Source: Candidatus Daviesbacteria bacterium (GTDB lineage Bacteria; Patescibacteriota; Microgenomatia; Daviesbacterales; UBA10151). From it: DNA of 49,803 nt. Shown here in pieces: positions 3,574-45,185 of the stretch. The stretch is taken from positions 1 through 49,803 of the forward strand of contig JAKFWZ010000045.1 of the NCBI GenBank assembly GCA_021731695.1. Reading direction: 5' to 3'. The translations under genes were made by a program, and so were the position numbers. Under the pieces are notes generated by a model that saw nothing but the letters and a program-made list of their open reading frames with translations, was not told where the DNA came from and ran no database searches. Each line of letters begins with the position of its first letter. Positions within the stretch are counted from its first letter, which is position 1.

Positions 3574-4523
3574 TTTCCGCTGTTTAAAATAGTTGTTGAA
3601 AACTGGCTGACATCCTTCCGATCGACTAAGCCGTCTGAATTCAAATCATAAGTTGCTCTTTCTTCGGCCGTCAAAGAGGAGGACGCGCCGGCCTTGCTTC
3701 TTAAAATTGCTAAATCTAAAGAGTTAACTGTTCCATCTCTATTGTAATCTAGTCCGCCTGTTGGTTGAGCCCCGATGATAATTGGCAAAATTTCATTATG
3801 TTTATATTTTGATAAATCCAAATTCGAACCAATTGTTACTGGGGGAAGATTTACATTTGAATCAGAAATTAAAACTTTAACTCTTGATTGTATCTTTCCT
3901 TTTTTAAATAACAGTGTAGCGGGGGTGTTGTCGGGAACATGGAAAATTTTATTTAGCTCAGTATTTAAAACCAGTTTTAGCGGCATAACAAAATTTCCGG
4001 ATGTCGATGAGAATGTGGCCAGTTTTTGTGCACCTTCAATTTCCAAAAAGATTAAAGCCTCATCAATTGGATTAAGCGTGGTATTCAATACAGTTCCTTT
4101 AAGAGGTTTAATAAATGAAAAATCAAGATCTTCCTGAGGGGGGATATTTGCTGTAGTAAATTCAGCTGCCTGTTCCGGAGGAGAAACACCGGCATTTAAA
4201 AGCTTATAGTAGTATTTAGTATTTGGTGTGAGATTCTTGATGGTTACAAAGTGAGTAAACTTTTCTTTTGCTGCAGATAAGTCCCGATTATCAGAAGCAC
4301 TTTGTCCCAAATTTTCAGATTGGCCATAATTTACAGTTCCAACTACAGGTAAGTTAGTTTGCCAGACAACTGTCGCAGTTGTGTCAGTAATATTAACAGT
4401 CTCCATGTCACTGACTTCAATATTCACTAGAGGCTGTGGTTTCTCTTTGATAAAAAACCAATAAAAGAGTGAACCAATAAGTGAAAGGATTATTGCTATT
4501 CCGACCAGTGTTGGTATTCTCAT
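3570..4523 (-). CDS. Membrane-anchored FN3 / carboxypeptidase-regulatory / dockerin protein
   Basis: 317 residues, function not recognised. A transmembrane anchor (about 6-25) is followed by a fibronectin type III domain (about 38-126, TDTTATVVWQTN start and TKYYYKL strand), then a carboxypeptidase-regulatory-like beta domain (about 140-205). A C-terminal dockerin-like pair of calcium loops closes the protein: DYNRDGTVNSLD and DLNSDGLVDRKD. The domains should lie outside the cytoplasmic membrane. Its start overlaps the previous gene by 4 bp, so it is the last gene of the PilN-PilO operon and may be a surface or pilus-associated protein. No cohesin partner is seen in this window. Confidence 0.75.
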   Translation of the reverse strand: MRIPTLVGIAIILSLIGSLFYWFFIKEKPQPLVNIEVSDMETVNITDTTATVVWQTNLPVVGTVNYGQSENLGQSASDNRDLSAAKEKFTHFVTIKNLTPNTKYYYKLLNAGVSPPEQAAEFTTANIPPQEDLDFSFIKPLKGTVLNTTLNPIDEALIFLEIEGAQKLATFSSTSGNFVMPLKLVLNTELNKIFHVPDNTPATLLFKKGKIQSRVKVLISDSNVNLPPVTIGSNLDLSKYKHNEILPIIIGAQPTGGLDYNRDGTVNSLDLAILRSKAGASSSLTAEERATYDLNSDGLVDRKDVSQFSTTILNSGN

Positions 4524-4894
4524 GGATTTATAGCTCCTGACGTTGCAACAAGCGGCTGGGATGGTAAAGCTAAGGGTGAAGGAGAAATCAAAGGTGATGG
4601 AAACAATGATGGTAATGGAGAAGATGAAGATAGAGGAATAGGTGCAGTAGAAGCTACAGGTGCAGAAATAGCATCACGAAGTGCCGGTGTGGTTAGGTTG
4701 GTTTCGGTTACATCCTTATCGATTGAATCCAGAAGTCTTTGATTGAAAGTTGGGTTCACAGGCGAAAGCAGAGTTTCGAGTTTTTCGCTGACAGGAACGC
4801 TAGCTTTTGTATTAAAAATTATATCAGAGATAAGCCAGACCATTCCGACGATAAAAGTTATTATAACTAGTGTTGCAAATTGTTTTCCGGTCAT
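4520..4894 (-). CDS. Small membrane protein with Pro/Ser-rich tail
   Basis: 124 residues, no family recognised. One transmembrane segment (about 5-27, rich in V, I and F), a short soluble stretch, then a low-complexity tail of P, S and L repeats (about 80-118). It sits 1 nt after PilO and overlaps the dockerin protein by 4 bp, so translation is probably coupled. Its position would suit a PilP-like lipoprotein partner, but no PilP similarity or lipobox is visible. Confidence 0.7.
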   Translation of the reverse strand: MTGKQFATLVIITFIVGMVWLISDIIFNTKASVPVSEKLETLLSPVNPTFNQRLLDSIDKDVTETNLTTPALRDAISAPVASTAPIPLSSSSPLPSLFPSPLISPSPLALPSQPLVATSGAINP

Positions 4895-4895
4895 G

Positions 4896-5498
4896 TTAGT
4901 TTTTCATATAATAAGCCTTAGCTGTAAGAGACATGATAAGCGAGGAATCCTGAGGCTGGACAAAATTTATCGAATTAATAGTTATCAATCGGTTTGATTT
5001 CTTTATTTCAGTGAGCATGTTCATTAGATCTGAAAAACTGCCCTGTGCATTCAGTGTAAATTCCACCGGTAAAATGGCGGCATCTTTATTTAGAAGTGTT
5101 TGTTTAGGTTCAACTTCTACAGTTTGGAATTGAAGACCGGATATGGTTGCATCTGATTGATCAGCAATATAATTAATGCTGTTTATAAGTTGGGGTAGAG
5201 AAGGATTGTCAGGAATTAAGTTGTTTATCTTGTTTTTCAGTCGGTTATCAATATTCTCGTAGTTTTGTTTTCCCTGAGTTAAATTTTTTGACTTTTCCTG
5301 AACACGATTTAATATATCAGTTTGTTCGTCAATACTTTTTTGTAGCGATAAAATTGTAGTTATAGTTGGACGAAGAGCATAAAATGAAAAAATTGCTATT
5401 GTGATCAGACTGAAGATTAAAGGACTATAAGTCCGAACTACTTTATTTCGGAAAACCGGTCTGACATATGTATAGTATCTTGATGTTTTCGGGTTCAT
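4896..5498 (-). CDS. pilO: Type IV pilus inner-membrane protein PilO-like
   Basis: 200 residues. One transmembrane segment (about 24-42), a coiled coil (about 45-85 with heptad-like S/L/E spacing) and a ferredoxin-like periplasmic domain (about 100-198) match PilO. In type IV pilus machines PilO dimerises with PilN and links the cytoplasmic PilM ring to the outer parts. The gene overlaps pilN by 4 bp (ATGA). A separate pilM gene is not next to it; an actin-like domain elsewhere in the window (40103-42280) might substitute. Confidence 0.75.
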   Translation of the reverse strand: MNPKTSRYYTYVRPVFRNKVVRTYSPLIFSLITIAIFSFYALRPTITTILSLQKSIDEQTDILNRVQEKSKNLTQGKQNYENIDNRLKNKINNLIPDNPSLPQLINSINYIADQSDATISGLQFQTVEVEPKQTLLNKDAAILPVEFTLNAQGSFSDLMNMLTEIKKSNRLITINSINFVQPQDSSLIMSLTAKAYYMKN

Positions 5499-6067
5499 AG
5501 TTCTGAACTAGCTCCTGTTATAGTAAAAACGATCTGGTTATCTTCGAAGGCGATATTGGTTAAATTTATTTCGCTTAATGTATCCTGACCCCTTAAATTA
5601 TTAAGAAAAATTCCAAGGTCTGTATTAGATAAGGTTGAACCGTTAACTCTAAAAATCACACTTTTCTCGTCTTTGTCCTCAAGTGAAAGACCAATAAAGA
5701 CAATTGATTTTGGGGTTAGGGTTGCAAGAAGCAGTGTTGTGGATTGCCAACGATCATAAGAAAGATAAGTTTTATCAATTAATGCCAGTTTATTTTGAGT
5801 TTGGTCGATTAAGGCTTCATCAGTAGCTTGTTCCTCGATGTAGGGAAGATCTGCATTGATATCTTTTTTAAGCTGGTCAAGATCCGCATCGTATTTGAAG
5901 CGCGCAACAAAAGCAGAGACTACGATAATTTCTACGAAAATTACAATGAACCGGCCATAAGTTACAAGCCACTTGATGAATTTTTCGCCTAAACGGGTTT
6001 GAAGCTCCTTGGGGTGAAGAAGGTTAAGATTTATGCGCAATTTTGTTTCCGGAGCAGAATTCGGCAT
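5495..6067 (-). CDS. pilN: Type IV pilus assembly protein PilN-like
   Basis: 190 residues. The cytoplasmic N-terminus carries INLNLLHPKE (residues 12-21), which corresponds to the PilM-binding INLLP-type motif of PilN. A transmembrane segment (about 36-57) and a coiled-coil stalk with a small periplasmic domain follow. First gene of a four-gene operon with 4-bp overlaps. A -10 (TAGAAT, 6074-6079) lies exactly 6 nt before the ATG and a GTGACA -35 lies 17 bp further upstream, so the transcript is probably leaderless. Confidence 0.75.
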   Translation of the reverse strand: MPNSAPETKLRINLNLLHPKELQTRLGEKFIKWLVTYGRFIVIFVEIIVVSAFVARFKYDADLDQLKKDINADLPYIEEQATDEALIDQTQNKLALIDKTYLSYDRWQSTTLLLATLTPKSIVFIGLSLEDKDEKSVIFRVNGSTLSNTDLGIFLNNLRGQDTLSEINLTNIAFEDNQIVFTITGASSEL

Positions 6068-37159: not shown

Positions 37160-37798
37160 ATGAGGACTGTTGGACAATTACTTAAAGAAACACGGGAAGC
37201 AAAGTTTTATACACTTGAAGAAATAGAGAAACACACAAAGATTCGTCGGGAGATGCTTAAGGCTTTGGAAGAGGATGATTATGATAAATTGCCTCCACTA
37301 ACTTTCATTCAGGGATTCGTTAAAAACTACGGAAAATTTTTAGGAATTGATTCTCAAAAATTAATGGCAATCTTAAGGCGGGATTTTGAGGCAAAAAAAC
37401 ATCCACCAGTAGTAATGGAAAGTTTTTCAAAACCGATGACTCATAAAAAGTTTTTTATCACACCCTCAAGATTGATTGGAATCGTAGTGGCTGTAATAAT
37501 CATTGGTTTCTTTGCATATCTTTGGATTGAATATCGTCAATTCGTCGGCGGACCAAAACTGGATCTTGCCAGTCCACAAAATGGTCAGAGTGTTGAAATG
37601 ACGTCTGTATTTGTTGAAGGATCAACAGATCCTGAAACAAAAATCACAGTTAACGAACAGGAAGTTGGAACTGATAGCAGTGGTTATTTTAAAGAAGAAG
37701 TTAAATTGTCTTCCTCAGTGAATGTTATAACAGTGACAGCAACTTCGAAATTTGGTCAATCGACAAAAGAAGAAAGAACTGTTTATATTAAGAAGTGA
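37160..37798 (+). CDS. RodZ-like HTH membrane protein with Ig-like domain
   Basis: 212 residues. N-terminal HTH_25 domain (about 3-72: TVGQLLKETREAKFYTLEEIE, KIRREMLKALEEDDYDKLP, FIQGFVKNYGKFLGID) typical of RodZ, which links MreB to the membrane and cell-wall machinery. A transmembrane segment (about 104-124) follows, and an extracytoplasmic Ig-like or glucodextranase-B-like domain (about 133-211) replaces the usual RodZ C-terminus. Leaderless promoter; divergent from the hypothetical gene at 36588. No mreB in this window. Confidence 0.8.
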   Translation: MRTVGQLLKETREAKFYTLEEIEKHTKIRREMLKALEEDDYDKLPPLTFIQGFVKNYGKFLGIDSQKLMAILRRDFEAKKHPPVVMESFSKPMTHKKFFITPSRLIGIVVAVIIIGFFAYLWIEYRQFVGGPKLDLASPQNGQSVEMTSVFVEGSTDPETKITVNEQEVGTDSSGYFKEEVKLSSSVNVITVTATSKFGQSTKEERTVYIKK

Positions 37799-38171: not shown

Positions 38172-40022
38172 ATGAAGAGTTCGGAAATCAGAAAAAAATA
38201 TATTGAGTTCTTTGTGGAGCGTGGCCATAAAGAAATTGAACCTGCGAAAATCGTACTTGAGGGCGACTCCACCACCCTTTTTACTTCATCCGGAATGCAG
38301 CCCTTAGTTTCTTATTTATTAGGTGAAAAACATCCTAAAGGCAAAAGGCTGGTGGATTCTCAGCCATCATTCCGCGCTGTTGATATTGAAGAAGTTGGAG
38401 ATGCCAGTCATACGACATTTTTTGAAATGTTAGGTAATTGGAGTCTTGGGGATTATTTTAAGGAAGATCAGTCGAAATGGATCTGGGAATTTTTAACTGA
38501 AGTTGTAGGTCTGGATAGAGAAAAATTGCATGTCACTATTTTTGAAGGAAATAATATTGTCCCGAAAGATATTGAGTCTTTTGAAATTTGGAAAAAGCTT
38601 GGTGTTGCAGAAGATCATATTCACGAATACGGCGTTGAAAAAAACTGGTGGTCTCGTTCTGGCACTCCGGACTTAATGCCTGTAGGGGAGATAGGCGGAC
38701 CTGATTCTGAAATTTTTTATGAATTTACTCAAATTGAACATAGATTGGAGTTCGGTGAAAAATGCCATCCAAATTGTGATTGCGGCAGATTTTTTGAGAT
38801 AGGTAACTCTGTTTTTATCGAGTATCGAAAAACAGGGGATGGGGAGTTTGAAAAACTGCCTCAACAAAATGTTGATTTTGGTGGAGGGCTTGAACGGTTT
38901 ACAGCGGCCTCTAATAATGAACCTGATGTTTTTAAAACTGATTTACACTGGCCGTTAATTCAACTCGTAGAAAAATTCACAAATAAAAAATATTCAGAAG
39001 AACCAAAACAAATGAGGATTATTGCAGATCATATAAAGGCCGCGACTTTCCTGATCGTTGCCGGAGTTATTCCTGCCAATAAAATGCAGGGATACGTCTT
39101 ACGAAGATTAATCAGAAGAATCGCGGTTAAAATGTATGAACTCAGAGGCAATCCTAAAAAAGATGAGATTCCGACGGATGCATTTGAAGCAGTTTGTTCG
39201 GAAGCTGTACTTTTAATGTATAACGGGCTTTTTGAAATTCGCGAAAAAGAGCAAAGGGAAAAAGTAGTCCGGGTTATTGTTGAAGAGATGGATAAATTCG
39301 GAAAATCTTTAGAAAAAGGTCTTAAGGAAATTACAAGAATTGAAAAAATTGACGGAAAAATTGCCTTTGACCTTTATCAAACATATGGTTTTCCACTTGA
39401 AATAACTTTGGAGCTGGTTAAGAAAAAAGGCCAGTCAATTGATTTAAAAGAATTTGAATCTGAATTTAAAAAGCATCAGGAACTTTCCCGCAGTGCTTCT
39501 GCCGGAAAATTTTCCGGAGGACTTGCCGGACATTCTGAAATTGAAACTAAATATCACACCGCCACCCATCTTTTGCATCAGGTTTTACGTGATATTTTGG
39601 GCGACACTGTATTCCAAAAAGGATCAAATATTACAACAGAAAGATTAAGATTTGATTTTTCATACGACAAAAAAATGACAAATGAAGAAATTAAAGAAGC
39701 TGAGGATTTAGTGAACGCAAAAATAAAAGAGGATTTTAAAGTTGACCGGAAATTTATGACTTATGATCAAGCAAAAACTCTAAACGCAATTGGACTCTTT
39801 GATGATAAGTATGACAAATCAAACGTTTCCATTTATTTAATGGGTCCGGATTATAAATTAGATCCTAAAACTAAAGATCAACGGTCTCGTGGGGGTTATT
39901 ATTCTGTGGAGTTTTGTGGTGGTCCGCACGTTGAACACACCGGTGTGATTGGCGGTATAAAAATTCTTAAAGAAGAAGCGGTGGCTGAAGGCGTGCGTAG
40001 GATTCGGGCAGTTCTCTCCTAG
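38172..40022 (+). CDS. alaS: Alanyl-tRNA synthetase, short form
   Basis: 616 residues against about 875 in most bacteria. Class II catalytic domain with TLFTSSGMQPLVSYLLGEKHP, the HTTFFEMLGNWSLGDYF segment and motif 3 FGGGLERF, then the tRNA-recognition part, then the editing domain with HTATHLLHQVL (HxxxH zinc site) and FCGGPHVEHTG (the other metal ligands). The coiled coil and C-Ala domain are absent; the protein stops after RRIRAVL. It charges tRNA-Ala and should still clear Ser- or Gly-tRNA-Ala. Confidence 0.95.
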   Translation: MKSSEIRKKYIEFFVERGHKEIEPAKIVLEGDSTTLFTSSGMQPLVSYLLGEKHPKGKRLVDSQPSFRAVDIEEVGDASHTTFFEMLGNWSLGDYFKEDQSKWIWEFLTEVVGLDREKLHVTIFEGNNIVPKDIESFEIWKKLGVAEDHIHEYGVEKNWWSRSGTPDLMPVGEIGGPDSEIFYEFTQIEHRLEFGEKCHPNCDCGRFFEIGNSVFIEYRKTGDGEFEKLPQQNVDFGGGLERFTAASNNEPDVFKTDLHWPLIQLVEKFTNKKYSEEPKQMRIIADHIKAATFLIVAGVIPANKMQGYVLRRLIRRIAVKMYELRGNPKKDEIPTDAFEAVCSEAVLLMYNGLFEIREKEQREKVVRVIVEEMDKFGKSLEKGLKEITRIEKIDGKIAFDLYQTYGFPLEITLELVKKKGQSIDLKEFESEFKKHQELSRSASAGKFSGGLAGHSEIETKYHTATHLLHQVLRDILGDTVFQKGSNITTERLRFDFSYDKKMTNEEIKEAEDLVNAKIKEDFKVDRKFMTYDQAKTLNAIGLFDDKYDKSNVSIYLMGPDYKLDPKTKDQRSRGGYYSVEFCGGPHVEHTGVIGGIKILKEEAVAEGVRRIRAVLS

Positions 40023-40042: not shown

Positions 40043-40092
40043 TTGCACAGGCTGTAATCTGTGCTAATATTAGTTTTGATCCTCTTAAGGGA
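40043..40092 (+). promoter_or_regulatory. Promoter and ribosome-binding site of the actin-like/baseplate-J gene
   Basis: TTGCAC (40043-40048), 16-bp spacer, TAATAT (40065-40070), then AAGGGA (40087-40092) 10 nt before the ATG at 40103. Confidence 0.45.
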
Positions 40093-40102
40093 AAGATTGC
40101 AT

Positions 40103-42280
40103 ATGGCATTGTTTGATTTTCTGTCCAAAATTATCCCACAAAAAAATACTCATCAATCGGAATATTTCTTCGCATTAGATATAAAAAATGATTTTGTTAC
40201 AGGCTCGGTTTGGGGTTTGGAAAGTAATAAATTACGAATAATCTCTCTTGTTAATAGAAAATTTAATCCGGAACCTACATTTCCTGAAAGCTCACATACT
40301 TTAACTGAAGCAGCAAATATTGCGCTTGATGAGGCTTTGGCGGATTTTCAGCCTGAGCCTGAAAAGATTCTTTTTGGTGTACCTGATTCCTGGTTGACTG
40401 ATGATGAATTAAAGCAGAAATATGCGACTGCTTTAAAAAGATTAATCAAGGAAATTGATGTTTTGCCTATCGCGTATGTATCATCGACTCACGCAATCTG
40501 TCACTATCTGCAGCGCCAGGAGGGTGTTCCGACTACAGCGATTTTGGTCGAAATTGGGGAAAGCTTAAATGTTTCAGTAGTTAAAGCCGGTAAAGTTTTA
40601 GCTTCAAAAGAAGTTACTCGGGGAGAGAATATAGCCCGCGATATTGAAAAGATTTTACTATCCTTTCCTGATATAGAAGTTTTGCCCGCGAAAATTTTAA
40701 TATACGGCAAAGGCAAGATGGGGCATTTAAAAGAGGAGCTCACTTCTTTTAACTGGATGGCTCAATTACCATTTTTGCATTTGCCTAAGGTAGAGGAATT
40801 GGAGGGCGAGATAGGAATTAAAAGTTTAACATTCGCCGGTGCCTCAGAAATAAATCCTAACGTTCATTTGGAGCATCAGACAGTGCCAATTAATCCTGCG
40901 CCTGCAAAAGTTCAGCCTATGCCAAAAACTATCAGTGAAGATGTTTATGGAACAGCTTTTGTGGAGGGTGACATCGCGAGCGTAAAGACCGGCGATAAGG
41001 AGACTCAACAGTCTGTAGATTTATATGAGAGAAGTTCCATTCCAGGTAGCAAAGATTTACTCTCGCAAAAAAAGAATGGACTTATGGATAAAATTTCAAT
41101 GCCTTCGATACCGAAAGGTATGCCTGACTTTGGTAGGCTACTTAGCGGATCGGGTTTTATATTTACTATTGTTGGAATTATTCTTGCAGTTTTGGTTGTT
41201 GGTTATATCTTTTTCCCCAAAGCGGAAGTAACTGTTTTTGTTGACCCGAGAATTTTAGAAAAAGAGACACAGATCGTAGCTGATCCCAAGCTTACCACCT
41301 CCGATGAAGCAAACAAGCAAATCGCGGGCAAAGTAGTCGAAACTACGGTTGACGGAACTGCAAAAGCGCAGGCAACTGGCAAGAAACCTGTGGGAGATCC
41401 TGCAAAAGGAACAGTCGTAATTTATAACAAAACTGCTTCTTCGAAATCTTTTCCCAGTGGTACGGTTTTAAATGGGCCAAACAATTTAAGTTTTGTTTTG
41501 GACAATAGCGTTACTGTTGCTTCACAGTCAGCTGTGGAAGGCGGTATATCTTTTGGAAAAGCCTCCGCTAATGCTACAGCATCGACTATCGGACCGGACG
41601 GGAATTTGGCCGCAGGAAAGGACCTAACTTTGAAGGGGCTTTCAGAAAGTGAAGTTAGCGCTAAAGTTGATACTGCATTTTCCGGTGGTGTATCGAAAGA
41701 TGTAATCGTGGTTACGTCAGAAGATCAGAAAAAACTTCTTGCTTCTTTAACGGCAGATTTAAAGAAAAAAGCTCAGGAAGAGCTGCAGGGTAAATTAACA
41801 GGAGATATGAAAATACTCGAGGAAACTTTTGTTGAAAAAGTTCTAAAACAGGCCTTCACGAAAAATGTTGGCGATCAGGCTTCTGAATTATCCCTTACTC
41901 TTAACGTAAATCTCAAAGGAACGGCGTATTCAGATACTGAGCTTAAATCGATTGTTGGAAAATTAGTTGAAACAAATGTTCCAGACGGTTTTGAGTTGGA
42001 TTTGGCCAGAACCGAAACACAGGCCTCAGTTGCTAAGGTAGAAAAAGACGGAAAGATTATTTTTACTGCAAAATATAAAGCAAAGTTAATGCCCAAACTG
42101 GATTTAGATAAGATAAAATCAGAGATTAAATTCAAAGCTCCGGATGAAGTTGAACAAATCCTGAAGTCTTATCCGAATGTTATAGGTGCTGATATAAAAT
42201 CCGTTCCGGAACTACCTTCGCCACTCTTAAGACTGCCGATACTTCCACAAAATATTAATATTGTAATTAACTCCAACTAA
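40103..42280 (+). CDS. Actin-like (PilM/FtsA-type) domain fused to a baseplate-J-like domain
   Basis: 725 residues. Residues about 18-250 look like an actin-like ATPase fold of the PilM/FtsA class: YFFALDIKNDFVTGSV first strand pair, FGVPDSWLTD, and TTAILVEIGESLNVSVVKAGK as phosphate-2. A linker, one transmembrane segment (about 351-371) and a large C-terminal part follow. That part (about 375-725) has the baseplate-J-like pattern known in CPR proteins: KGTVVIYNKTASSKSFPSGTVL, FVLDNSVTVASQSA, and later beta domains. So a cytoplasmic actin-like part is tied to an external part. The ATG at 40103 has AAGGGA upstream; a start at 40061 is rejected. Confidence 0.72.
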   Translation: MALFDFLSKIIPQKNTHQSEYFFALDIKNDFVTGSVWGLESNKLRIISLVNRKFNPEPTFPESSHTLTEAANIALDEALADFQPEPEKILFGVPDSWLTDDELKQKYATALKRLIKEIDVLPIAYVSSTHAICHYLQRQEGVPTTAILVEIGESLNVSVVKAGKVLASKEVTRGENIARDIEKILLSFPDIEVLPAKILIYGKGKMGHLKEELTSFNWMAQLPFLHLPKVEELEGEIGIKSLTFAGASEINPNVHLEHQTVPINPAPAKVQPMPKTISEDVYGTAFVEGDIASVKTGDKETQQSVDLYERSSIPGSKDLLSQKKNGLMDKISMPSIPKGMPDFGRLLSGSGFIFTIVGIILAVLVVGYIFFPKAEVTVFVDPRILEKETQIVADPKLTTSDEANKQIAGKVVETTVDGTAKAQATGKKPVGDPAKGTVVIYNKTASSKSFPSGTVLNGPNNLSFVLDNSVTVASQSAVEGGISFGKASANATASTIGPDGNLAAGKDLTLKGLSESEVSAKVDTAFSGGVSKDVIVVTSEDQKKLLASLTADLKKKAQEELQGKLTGDMKILEETFVEKVLKQAFTKNVGDQASELSLTLNVNLKGTAYSDTELKSIVGKLVETNVPDGFELDLARTETQASVAKVEKDGKIIFTAKYKAKLMPKLDLDKIKSEIKFKAPDEVEQILKSYPNVIGADIKSVPELPSPLLRLPILPQNINIVINSN

Positions 42281-42285
42281 ATCTT

Positions 42286-44283
42286 TTGAACGCAAAAACT
42301 AGCCTAATTAGTCTAAAAAATATCCCCTCATGGTTAATCTTTTCGTTGATACTGGTTGTGGTTTTCTTTGTAATTTATAATTCCAGACAAATCTTTTTCT
42401 TTAAATATGAGAGCGAATATTATGAAAATCTTTACTATCATTCGCAGTGGAATGTTGCCGGAAGTCCACGAGGCATCTCGGATGGTAATCTTTATAAGTT
42501 CGTAGGTTACAGATTAGTTCAGGGCGAAAATCCATTTGATCTAAATTTCGAAGCACCACCATTTGGGAAATATTTATATGGACTTTCTGAATATTTCACA
42601 GGTAATCCTTATTGGGTCAGTTTGCTTCTTTATCTCACTTGTCTGATCACATTTTATTATTTCACAAAGCTACTATTTCAAGATAAAAAATATGCGCTTT
42701 TAGTTTTACTGCTGTTTGTAGTAAATCCTTTTATAGCGACTCAAATTAAGGATACAATGCTTGATTTGCCTCTTACTACTTTTTTCCTTCTTCAGACCTT
42801 TTTTCTTGTTAAGTATTTTGATAAAACAAAGACTTCAGACCTGATTTTATCAGGAATTTTTCTGGGATTGGCTACGGGAACGAAAATAGGTGTCTATACT
42901 CCGATAGTATTTTTGATCAGTCTTCTCATGATTTTTTGGGCTGGCAAAAAATTTGTTCATTTATTAATTTACCCCGCTGCCATTTTTGCAGGATATATTA
43001 TTTCATATACAGCTTATTTTATGCATCACAAAAATCCTGTTCCTTGGATTAAATTGCACGAAAAACAGTTTGATTTTTACCTAGGACCGCAGGGAACAGT
43101 TGATCATTTAAATCAGTGGAGGGGAATTTTCTTAAATACTTATCAGGGATGGTGGGGAATAGATAAAGGCACCTTTGGAGACTGGTCGCCGGTTTTGCCT
43201 CTTGGTGTAATCGCTGCGGTTATTGTTTTGATTATAGCGATTAGGAAAAAGCAAAAGGCTTGGATCTACTTGTCTGCAATGACGTTAAGTTTTTTAATAA
43301 TTAATTCTTTTTTATCATTTTATCCAAGATATTTAATGCCGGCAGTTCCGGGATTTATTTTGTTAATTGCCTATTTTACGAAAAAATATTGGTGGATTCT
43401 TGTCATTTTAACAATTATGACTGTGCCATTTCTCTGGAGCAGTATGATTGTAAAAAATTATAATGGAGCTGCAGAAGGAATCGGAAATTTTATTTCCAAA
43501 AGGGCATATCGGGAACTTTATAGAAGTATAAATCCGGAACAGAGAAAAACAATTGATGAACAAAAATTTATCACAACTCTTGAGAATTTTTACCAGACTT
43601 TGGGGACTGAAAAAATTGATGTTAAAGTTGAGAGACTAAAAAGGAATGAAGAAAAAACGAACGTTGTTTATGAAACAAAGTATCAAACAGAATACGGAGA
43701 GATTGTTTTTTATCCTGAATTTGTATTTGAAGATATTAACAATCAGATGGTTCTTGATTGGAAATGGGATTATGTCTGGCCAAATTATTCACCGGAAAAG
43801 GAAATAAAAATTGAGGAAAAGGGTATGCAACTTGAAGCTATCCGAAGAGGAGGAATAGTTGTTGCGAGGAATAGTCCAGGAAGAAAAGTTTATATCATTA
43901 CAAGGCATGTAAAATGGAATGAGACTCTGGATCAATTATTAGAACTTACTGGCAAGCTTTGGGGCACGCCGTTAACAATTGCAGCCCAGATCAGGCTGGC
44001 AATACCAGATGATTTCCCGAGGTACATTGGAATTTTGGATGAAAATTTACCTGATGCTGAGAAAAAAGCTAGTGAGGTAACTGGCTTAAAACTTAAGGAA
44101 TTTAATTATTTAAGCCCTGTTGCAGGCTCAAGCATTAAAGATATCAATGAGTTAATTAGAAGAACATATGAAAGAAATCCAGAGCTATTTTATACAAATG
44201 CTGATATATATTTTGAAACAGAAAATGGTAGAGAGTATATACTTCATTCAAATAATAAAGAAAGGGTGATTTTAGATCTTTGA
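42286..44283 (+). CDS. Membrane glycosyltransferase, PMT/ArnT-like
   Basis: 665 residues. About 10 transmembrane segments in the first ~390 residues and a soluble C-terminal part. The first loop has GRE-like GENPFDLNFEAPPFGKYLYGL, where PMT-family (GT39/GT83) enzymes carry the acidic catalytic residue and the HPP/PPFGKY motif. Later come GIFLGLATGTKIGVYTP and YPRYLMPAVPGF. Such enzymes transfer a sugar from a polyprenyl-phosphate donor to surface substrates. The start is TTG at 42286, 5 nt after the previous gene. It overlaps the SGNH gene by 4 bp. Confidence 0.8.
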   Translation: MNAKTSLISLKNIPSWLIFSLILVVVFFVIYNSRQIFFFKYESEYYENLYYHSQWNVAGSPRGISDGNLYKFVGYRLVQGENPFDLNFEAPPFGKYLYGLSEYFTGNPYWVSLLLYLTCLITFYYFTKLLFQDKKYALLVLLLFVVNPFIATQIKDTMLDLPLTTFFLLQTFFLVKYFDKTKTSDLILSGIFLGLATGTKIGVYTPIVFLISLLMIFWAGKKFVHLLIYPAAIFAGYIISYTAYFMHHKNPVPWIKLHEKQFDFYLGPQGTVDHLNQWRGIFLNTYQGWWGIDKGTFGDWSPVLPLGVIAAVIVLIIAIRKKQKAWIYLSAMTLSFLIINSFLSFYPRYLMPAVPGFILLIAYFTKKYWWILVILTIMTVPFLWSSMIVKNYNGAAEGIGNFISKRAYRELYRSINPEQRKTIDEQKFITTLENFYQTLGTEKIDVKVERLKRNEEKTNVVYETKYQTEYGEIVFYPEFVFEDINNQMVLDWKWDYVWPNYSPEKEIKIEEKGMQLEAIRRGGIVVARNSPGRKVYIITRHVKWNETLDQLLELTGKLWGTPLTIAAQIRLAIPDDFPRYIGILDENLPDAEKKASEVTGLKLKEFNYLSPVAGSSIKDINELIRRTYERNPELFYTNADIYFETENGREYILHSNNKERVILDL

Positions 44284-45185
44284 GAAATTGGGGAAGCGTA
44301 AATTCAGCAAAATTTAGAAAAAGAAAACCTGCAGCCAGGTTTGTATTGGTTATTTTAATATTTTTTAGTCTAGGTGCATTTTTGCTATTGATGGTTTTTC
44401 CTAAAAAACCTGCAGCTACTCCTGTTCCAAAGCCTGAAATTTTAACTGAAACCAGAACAACTGTTGTTCTTTCGCCGACTCCTATGCCGAGTCCTTCTGC
44501 TTCACCAAGTCCAACTCCAAAGGTCGATCCAAAGCCCAGTCCGAATAAGTCTTCATACGTAGTTGCTGCCTTTGGCGATTCGATGGTTGATACAATGGGA
44601 GAGAATCTGGACTACTTAGATAAGGCTTTAATGGCAAGATACCCAACAACAAAATTCAAATTTTATAATTATGGAATTGGATCACAAAACGTTATTGATG
44701 CAATTAAAAGATTTAACGATCCTTTAATTTACAAAGACAGGGATTATTTACCAATAACGCAAATTGAAGCAGATGTAATTATTGTTTCATCGTTTGCATA
44801 TAATCCGCTCGAGCCTTATGACAGGACTCTTTATCTTGAATCTTTGAGGGGACTGATTAATAAATCAAAATCAACAGGTGCAAAGGTTTATTTGCTTGCA
44901 GAAATTGCGCCGATAAAAACCGGATTTGGAAAAGGAGTGGGCGGTGTAAATTGGGATGAGGAAAAAGTTGCAACTCATGTAGCACATATTTTTTCCAATC
45001 TTGATGGCGCAGTTGGTCTGGCTGCGCGGACAAAAACTCCGTTAATTAATGCCTATAAGAAATCTCAGACAGATGGAAAATATGGAGATCAAAGATATGT
45101 AGGAACTCACGATGGCATTCATCCATCAATCGAAGGTGAGGTTTTTATGGCTGATGTAATTGCTGATTCAATTGATCTGCCGTAA
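44280..45185 (+). CDS. SGNH/GDSL-type hydrolase, membrane-anchored
   Basis: 301 residues. Transmembrane anchor (about 21-40), Pro/Ser/Thr-rich linker with PSP repeats (about 48-92), then an SGNH domain: AAFGDSMVD with the nucleophile Ser, YNYGIGSQN, an internal IIVSSFAYN strand, and HDGIHPS providing the Asp-His pair. SGNH enzymes are esterases or acyltransferases acting on lipids, glycans or peptidoglycan; the external location and the adjacent glycosyltransferase suggest cell-surface glycan modification (inference). TTG start within the TTGA overlap. Its 3' end overlaps otsB by 18 bp, convergently. Confidence 0.8.
   Translation: MRNWGSVNSAKFRKRKPAARFVLVILIFFSLGAFLLLMVFPKKPAATPVPKPEILTETRTTVVLSPTPMPSPSASPSPTPKVDPKPSPNKSSYVVAAFGDSMVDTMGENLDYLDKALMARYPTTKFKFYNYGIGSQNVIDAIKRFNDPLIYKDRDYLPITQIEADVIIVSSFAYNPLEPYDRTLYLESLRGLINKSKSTGAKVYLLAEIAPIKTGFGKGVGGVNWDEEKVATHVAHIFSNLDGAVGLAARTKTPLINAYKKSQTDGKYGDQRYVGTHDGIHPSIEGEVFMADVIADSIDLP

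Follow-up and report, generated by a model that had tools for sequence, protein, structure and literature searches.

A fusion of an actin-like half and a baseplate-J-type half in Microgenomatia and its two-gene counterpart in other Patescibacteria

The window, that is, the whole stretch of 49,803 nucleotides of Candidatus Daviesbacteria DNA analysed here (contig JAKFWZ010000045.1), carries on its forward strand a gene (40103..42280, +) encoding a protein of 725 aa followed by a stop codon. Its reading frame is open throughout positions 40061-42280 (+), and the ATG at 40103 agrees with the start of the homologues (alignment A1). The protein consists of an actin-like domain, a linker, a membrane helix and an outer half, and its two halves are joined by one membrane helix within a single 725-aa ORF. 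The AlphaFold2 model of the fusion, for which 37 homologues formed the input alignment, showed a mean pLDDT of 81, with residues 20-255 and 348-725 mostly above 80-90. Residues 1-261 (40103..40885, +) form a minimal actin-like (ASKHA) domain, which is assigned below to a family called ACT on the basis of the model, Foldseek, hhalign and a tree; it bears a W-x3-LPF-x3-PK motif (residues 218-229; 40754..40789, +) that is near-invariant in alignment A1. It is followed by a disordered and variable linker (residues 262-347; 40886..41143, +), recognizable by gaps in the alignment and by pLDDT values below 50 at about 261-347, and by a single transmembrane helix (residues 351-370; 41153..41212, +) that was found both in the model and in a hydropathy scan, the latter giving one membrane segment at 345-378; the inner half is predicted to be cytoplasmic. 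The outer half contains a beta barrel of the baseplate-J/GlxA type (residues 431-530; 41393..41692, +) and a conserved C-terminal part of helix-strand domains (residues 539-725; 41717..42277, +), the latter recognized from the models and its phylum-wide presence. An earlier note on this DNA had imagined a membrane-spanning machine, and the inner actin-like half, the helix and the outer half agree with that idea.

Upstream of the fusion gene lie a gene for a RodZ-like membrane protein with an HTH_25 domain (37160..37798, +; HTH_25 77.9 bits), which belongs to the conserved Daviesbacteria neighbourhood and was found in 35 of 42 loci, and alaS (38172..40022, +), found in 40 of the 42. The gene order in Daviesbacteria is ftsK, RodZ-like protein, alaS, fusion, sortase, ruvX and mltG. 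Downstream of the fusion in the window are genes for a PMT-type glycosyltransferase and an SGNH hydrolase (42286-45185, +). The earlier note was right that these two genes adjoin the fusion here, but relatives have sortase, ruvX and mltG in that place; this set is absent at the fusion locus in the window genome and in a relative of the same genus (L063).

In a phylum-wide draw, the outer half was matched in 254 of 287 genomes. All 24 matching genomes of the class Microgenomatia, several of them single-contig, encoded the full-length fusion as one ORF of 699-798 aa, which excludes chance or an assembly error as its source, and 36 of 38 closer relatives carried the fusion in whole or in part. 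The fusion protein is a genuine, conserved and unusual one. Beyond the class, matches were confined to the outer half: among the matches listed, the alignment begins from residue ~240 onward, and the ORFs are mostly of 420-720 aa. In a sample of 60 non-class loci, drawn from genomes of about 60 families, the gene for this half, here called BpJ, stands alone. A profile made only from the fused inner halves detected an ORF directly upstream of BpJ on the same strand in 51 of these 60 loci, with a median gap of about 11 bp. A second profile, built from these upstream ORFs (here called ACT), added L113, where the copy is divergent, and L116, where its frame is broken, giving 53 of 60, and in one genome where BpJ lies at a contig end with no ACT alongside (L143), ACT was found elsewhere (6e-170). 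No match of ACT strength was obtained in 11 genomes without BpJ. The inner half of the fusion is homologous to ACT and the outer half to BpJ, and we define the two as the ACT-BpJ module. What is new here is the separate ACT gene directly upstream of a stand-alone BpJ across non-class families. Because of this adjacency, the inner and outer genes are likely partners, which are fused in Microgenomatia. The fusion and the adjacency also suggest a direct contact between ACT and BpJ in the separate form. The distance matrices of ACT and BpJ (simple distances) correlate beyond alaS (partial r 0.52, 0 of 2000 permutations), in agreement with such a contact and with the envelope role proposed below.

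The module is not uniform across the sample. Six lineages (L125, L128, L136, L141, L152 and L163) encode BpJ while their genomes lack an ACT gene, so that BpJ can work alone there; ribosomal-protein genes follow BpJ in five of the six. In a Peregrinibacteria genome (L104, genome G315), ACT and BpJ are unlinked on different contigs, and a sortase gene adjoins ACT.

An actin-like fold is present in residues 1-260 according to AlphaFold2 and Foldseek, as the earlier note had expected; it is confidently modelled, and its top match in the PDB is PilM of P. aeruginosa (5eoy, E 5.5e-9). The identification of the inner half as PilM did not hold. Pfam detected no actin family in the fusion and no PilM_2 (PF11104) match at E up to 1, and NCBIfam gave no match. 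By hhalign, the fused inner half scored 99.8% (E 9e-29) against the separate ACT, compared with 84% against PilM and 9% against FtsA. A maximum-likelihood tree (quick search, SH-aLRT support only, unrooted) placed the fused halves and ACT together across a branch with an SH-aLRT of 98, apart from PilM, FtsA and MreB; the PilM branch has a support of 100, and the fused halves side with ACT instead. A paralogue of FtsA or PilM is rejected by this tree. Since the tree is unrooted, fission of an ancestral fusion, instead of fusion, may have been the origin of the two forms. Furthermore, the W-x3-LPF-x3-PK motif is common to fused and separate ACT, which align in this region, and is absent from the aligned parts of PilM and FtsA. 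On these sequence comparisons, the inner half belongs with ACT, an actin-like family distinct from PilM, FtsA and MreB.

By profile, the typical separate ACT is nearest to FtsA, before PilM or MreB (TIGR01174, 107 bits; FtsA in the PDB, E 5e-30), and the ACT-BpJ module resembles the divisome pair FtsA-FtsN in combining an actin-like protein with a single-pass partner. However, the TIGR01174 score lies under the FtsA cut-off of 175.85, ACT fell below each of the curated NCBIfam cut-offs tried, and it has its own branch in the tree. It also lacks the SHS2 domain: a search with SHS2 (PF02491) showed that each of 70 genomes has its own SHS2-bearing FtsA (one match per genome, two in G299), with no match at the ACT or fusion position. 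A likeness of BpJ to FtsN was reported by none of the libraries used.

The fused halves also differ from the separate ACT in their motifs and size. The phosphate-2 (P2) ATP motif was detected in 44 of 51 separate ACT sequences versus 0 of 28 fused halves, and the adenosine motif in 45 of 51 versus 1 of 28; with these strict patterns CPR PilM also scores low, so that the motif loss weighs less against PilM membership. Relative to ACT, the fused half has a deletion of about 95 aa at the position of the IC subdomain, which is present in FtsA and PilM, and of about 40 aa in IIB; in the alignment with PilM, the part corresponding to the IC subdomain is also missing. We propose by analogy that the fused form, without ATP motifs, may serve as a pseudo-actin anchor in the manner of the type II secretion protein GspL, a single bitopic chain with an actin-like cytoplasmic domain that is seen as a natural PilM-PilN fusion. 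Like GspL, the fusion is bitopic with an actin-like cytoplasmic half, but its outer half comprises a baseplate-J-type barrel and other domains and has no PilN-like outer domain. Type II secretion neighbours of the fusion were found at none of the loci examined, where alaS, sortase, ruvX and mltG occur instead.

The earlier note held that the pil operon of the window has no PilM and that the fusion might be a hybrid pilus machine whose inner half binds PilN. PilN and PilO are indeed encoded in the window without an adjoining pilM (4520-6067, −), together with a small membrane protein and an fn3/dockerin protein and next to murJ. This pair was matched in 15 of 15 family genomes searched, and none of the 11 family loci searched has a pilM alongside, as would suit an inner half that substitutes for PilM and provides a hybrid pilus platform. 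The pair is, however, a second one, since contig C5 of the same genome carries a canonical pilM-pilN-pilO operon together with several prepilins (PilM_2 160 bits); on contig C50 there is an FtsQ-FtsA pair. A genome with two sets of PilN/PilO is not surprising, because Saccharibacteria have been described to possess two pilus systems with a separate pilM for each (PMC12206443). FtsA and PilM receive the short cytoplasmic tails of the single-pass proteins FtsN and PilN, respectively, in their IA-IC cleft (PMC7613929), and the IC subdomain, which supplies half of this cleft for PilN, is absent from the inner half; this argues against PilN binding.

The alignment complex of the type IV pilus, PilM-PilN, is likewise an inner actin with a bitopic partner, and PilM is the best solved fold for the inner half. 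The inner half differs in having no PilM_2 match, IC subdomain or ATP motifs and in its separate branch, with pilM found elsewhere. In one non-class family, two genomes (L060/L108 and L061) have a PilN/PilO-like pair convergent with ACT-BpJ, but such a pair lies near ACT-BpJ in just 1 of the 60 non-class loci. There is no PilN/PilO-like match in the Daviesbacteria fusion loci, and the fusion gene lies about 34 kb away from the second pilN and pilO in the window. In addition, a single-contig, 99% complete genome (G061) retains ACT-BpJ although neither canonical PilM nor PilO could be detected in it. Among 12 genomes without canonical PilM, in which a divergent and a missing PilM are indistinguishable, PilO was found in 7 and the T2SSE ATPase in 12. 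With a separate pilMNO in the genome and the IC subdomain missing, the pilus interpretation of the fusion is not supported, and a PilM substitute is very unlikely.

Regarding the outer half, its best PDB match by Foldseek within the full fusion model was the baseplate of phage XM1 (7kh1, E 1.7e-7). Folded alone, it matched the baseplate proteins of XM1, phi812, A-1(L) and Mu as well as the GlxA barrel, and baseplate J proteins were also matched in a viral library. Together with a match of the phrog_6 baseplate wedge to one non-class BpJ homologue (E 9e-9), these results would fit an outer half that belongs to a contractile injection or phage-derived apparatus, with the actin-like domain as its anchor. 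However, what the outer half has in common with the Baseplate J family (PF04865; phage Mu, XM1 and phi812) is a barrel of about 110 residues, which the enzyme GlxA has too. Over long alignments, the whole-domain TM score is about 0.2 and the rmsd above 20 Å, and therefore only the barrel is common with baseplate proteins. The Pfam Baseplate_J score of the window protein (19.0, residues 431-530) is under the gathering cut-off of 21.1; the homologue L119 is just above it, at 22.0. Of the baseplate-J-like outer half proposed in the earlier note, the barrel thus stands, and the likeness ends there. Unlike these phage proteins, the outer half is membrane anchored and stands apart from tail genes: no tail, sheath, tube or baseplate gene was found beside the gene in the neighbourhoods of 42 + 60 loci, where the neighbours are housekeeping and wall genes. 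By sequence, no phage homologue was found in 50,697 phage records, nor was a plasmid match found for a non-class homologue. As the gene is also retained across most of the phylum sample, an injection apparatus is extremely improbable. The non-class BpJ has a feature absent from the fused form, namely a conserved cytoplasmic N-terminal domain of about 82 aa (residues ~1-82) ahead of its single membrane pass; a Pfam scan of this domain in two members gave no match.

Outside the class, the usual gene order is alaS-ACT-BpJ-ruvX-mltG, sometimes followed by mreB-mreC-pbp2. Among the 60 non-class loci, alaS lies at most 4.5 kb upstream in 47, and ruvX was found directly after BpJ in 37, mltG in 32, mreB and mreC in 12 and pbp2 in 10; the neighbours ruvX, mltG, mreB, mreC, pbp2 and sortase were confirmed by Pfam. 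The order alaS-ruvX-mltG is common in other bacteria too, and therefore the nearness to mltG may be an inherited position rather than a matter of function. The module is similar to the MreB/RodZ/MreC elongation system in that both combine an actin with a bitopic protein, and their neighbours overlap (RodZ-like protein, mltG, mreB, mreC and pbp2), but in the 12 loci mreB stands as a gene of its own near ACT, and MreB has its own branch in the tree. A different role, that of a surface adhesin or host-contact anchor, would have BpJ display an outer attachment structure of these likely epibionts, with the actin-like part just positioning it. The large outer half, the sortase adjoining the fusion in many Daviesbacteria loci, and the glycosyltransferase and SGNH hydrolase in the window genome are in line with this role, but sortase is outside the conserved set in non-class loci. 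Moreover, the family shows strong conservation of the outer half (mean column identity 60%, alignment A4), unlike what one would expect of a host-facing adhesin, and the separate ACT retains ATP motifs that a plain anchor would not need. We therefore consider such an anchor unlikely.

Because the two halves are neighbouring genes beside cell-wall genes in most of the other CPR lineages examined, they point to an inside-to-outside envelope machine and not to a missing pilus part. The fusion is probably the Microgenomatia form of a two-part Patescibacteria module, ACT and BpJ, that serves as a membrane-spanning actin-like envelope scaffold on the plan of FtsA-FtsN, PilM-PilN or GspL, although it belongs to none of these; the putative envelope role follows from gene order. 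Outside the class, ACT, with its ATP motifs intact, would lie beneath the membrane and grip the cytoplasmic part of BpJ, a hold modelled on FtsA-FtsN and PilM-PilN. BpJ would span the membrane, and its outer half would touch the wall or a surface layer, so that the module could link an inner scaffold with the growth of the wall or with a structure on the surface. The position of the module between alaS and ruvX-mltG, in some lineages with mreB-mreC-pbp2, is consistent with such a tie. In Microgenomatia, a covalent link would replace docking, making the IC subdomain of ACT and the ~82-aa cytoplasmic domain of BpJ dispensable, and both are absent from the fused form; with the loss of the ATP motifs as well, a pseudo-actin anchor would be left. 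More tentatively, ACT could be a further Patescibacteria actin family, besides FtsA, MreB and PilM, that serves a transmembrane envelope machine with a baseplate-type barrel and that became a one-chain, ATP-independent form in Microgenomatia.

Our search of the literature on baseplate J or on actin-like/FtsA proteins in CPR/Patescibacteria found nothing on this protein, and the main text of the S. epibionticum Tn-seq paper makes no mention of baseplate, FtsA or MreB (PMC10633639). How the CPR envelope is built and organized is poorly known. From a pair retained across most of the phylum sample and joined into one gene in a single class, working partners can be predicted strongly and cheaply, and this predicted partnership sits in a gene cluster with wall-growth genes. 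Since the IC subdomain is lost where the partner is covalently attached, the module also offers a natural test of whether this subdomain of FtsA/PilM relatives exists to hold a bitopic partner. Overall, a misleading 'baseplate' label gives way to a testable envelope role, and the machine, if real, would take part in growing the wall or assembling the surface of these ultrasmall cells.
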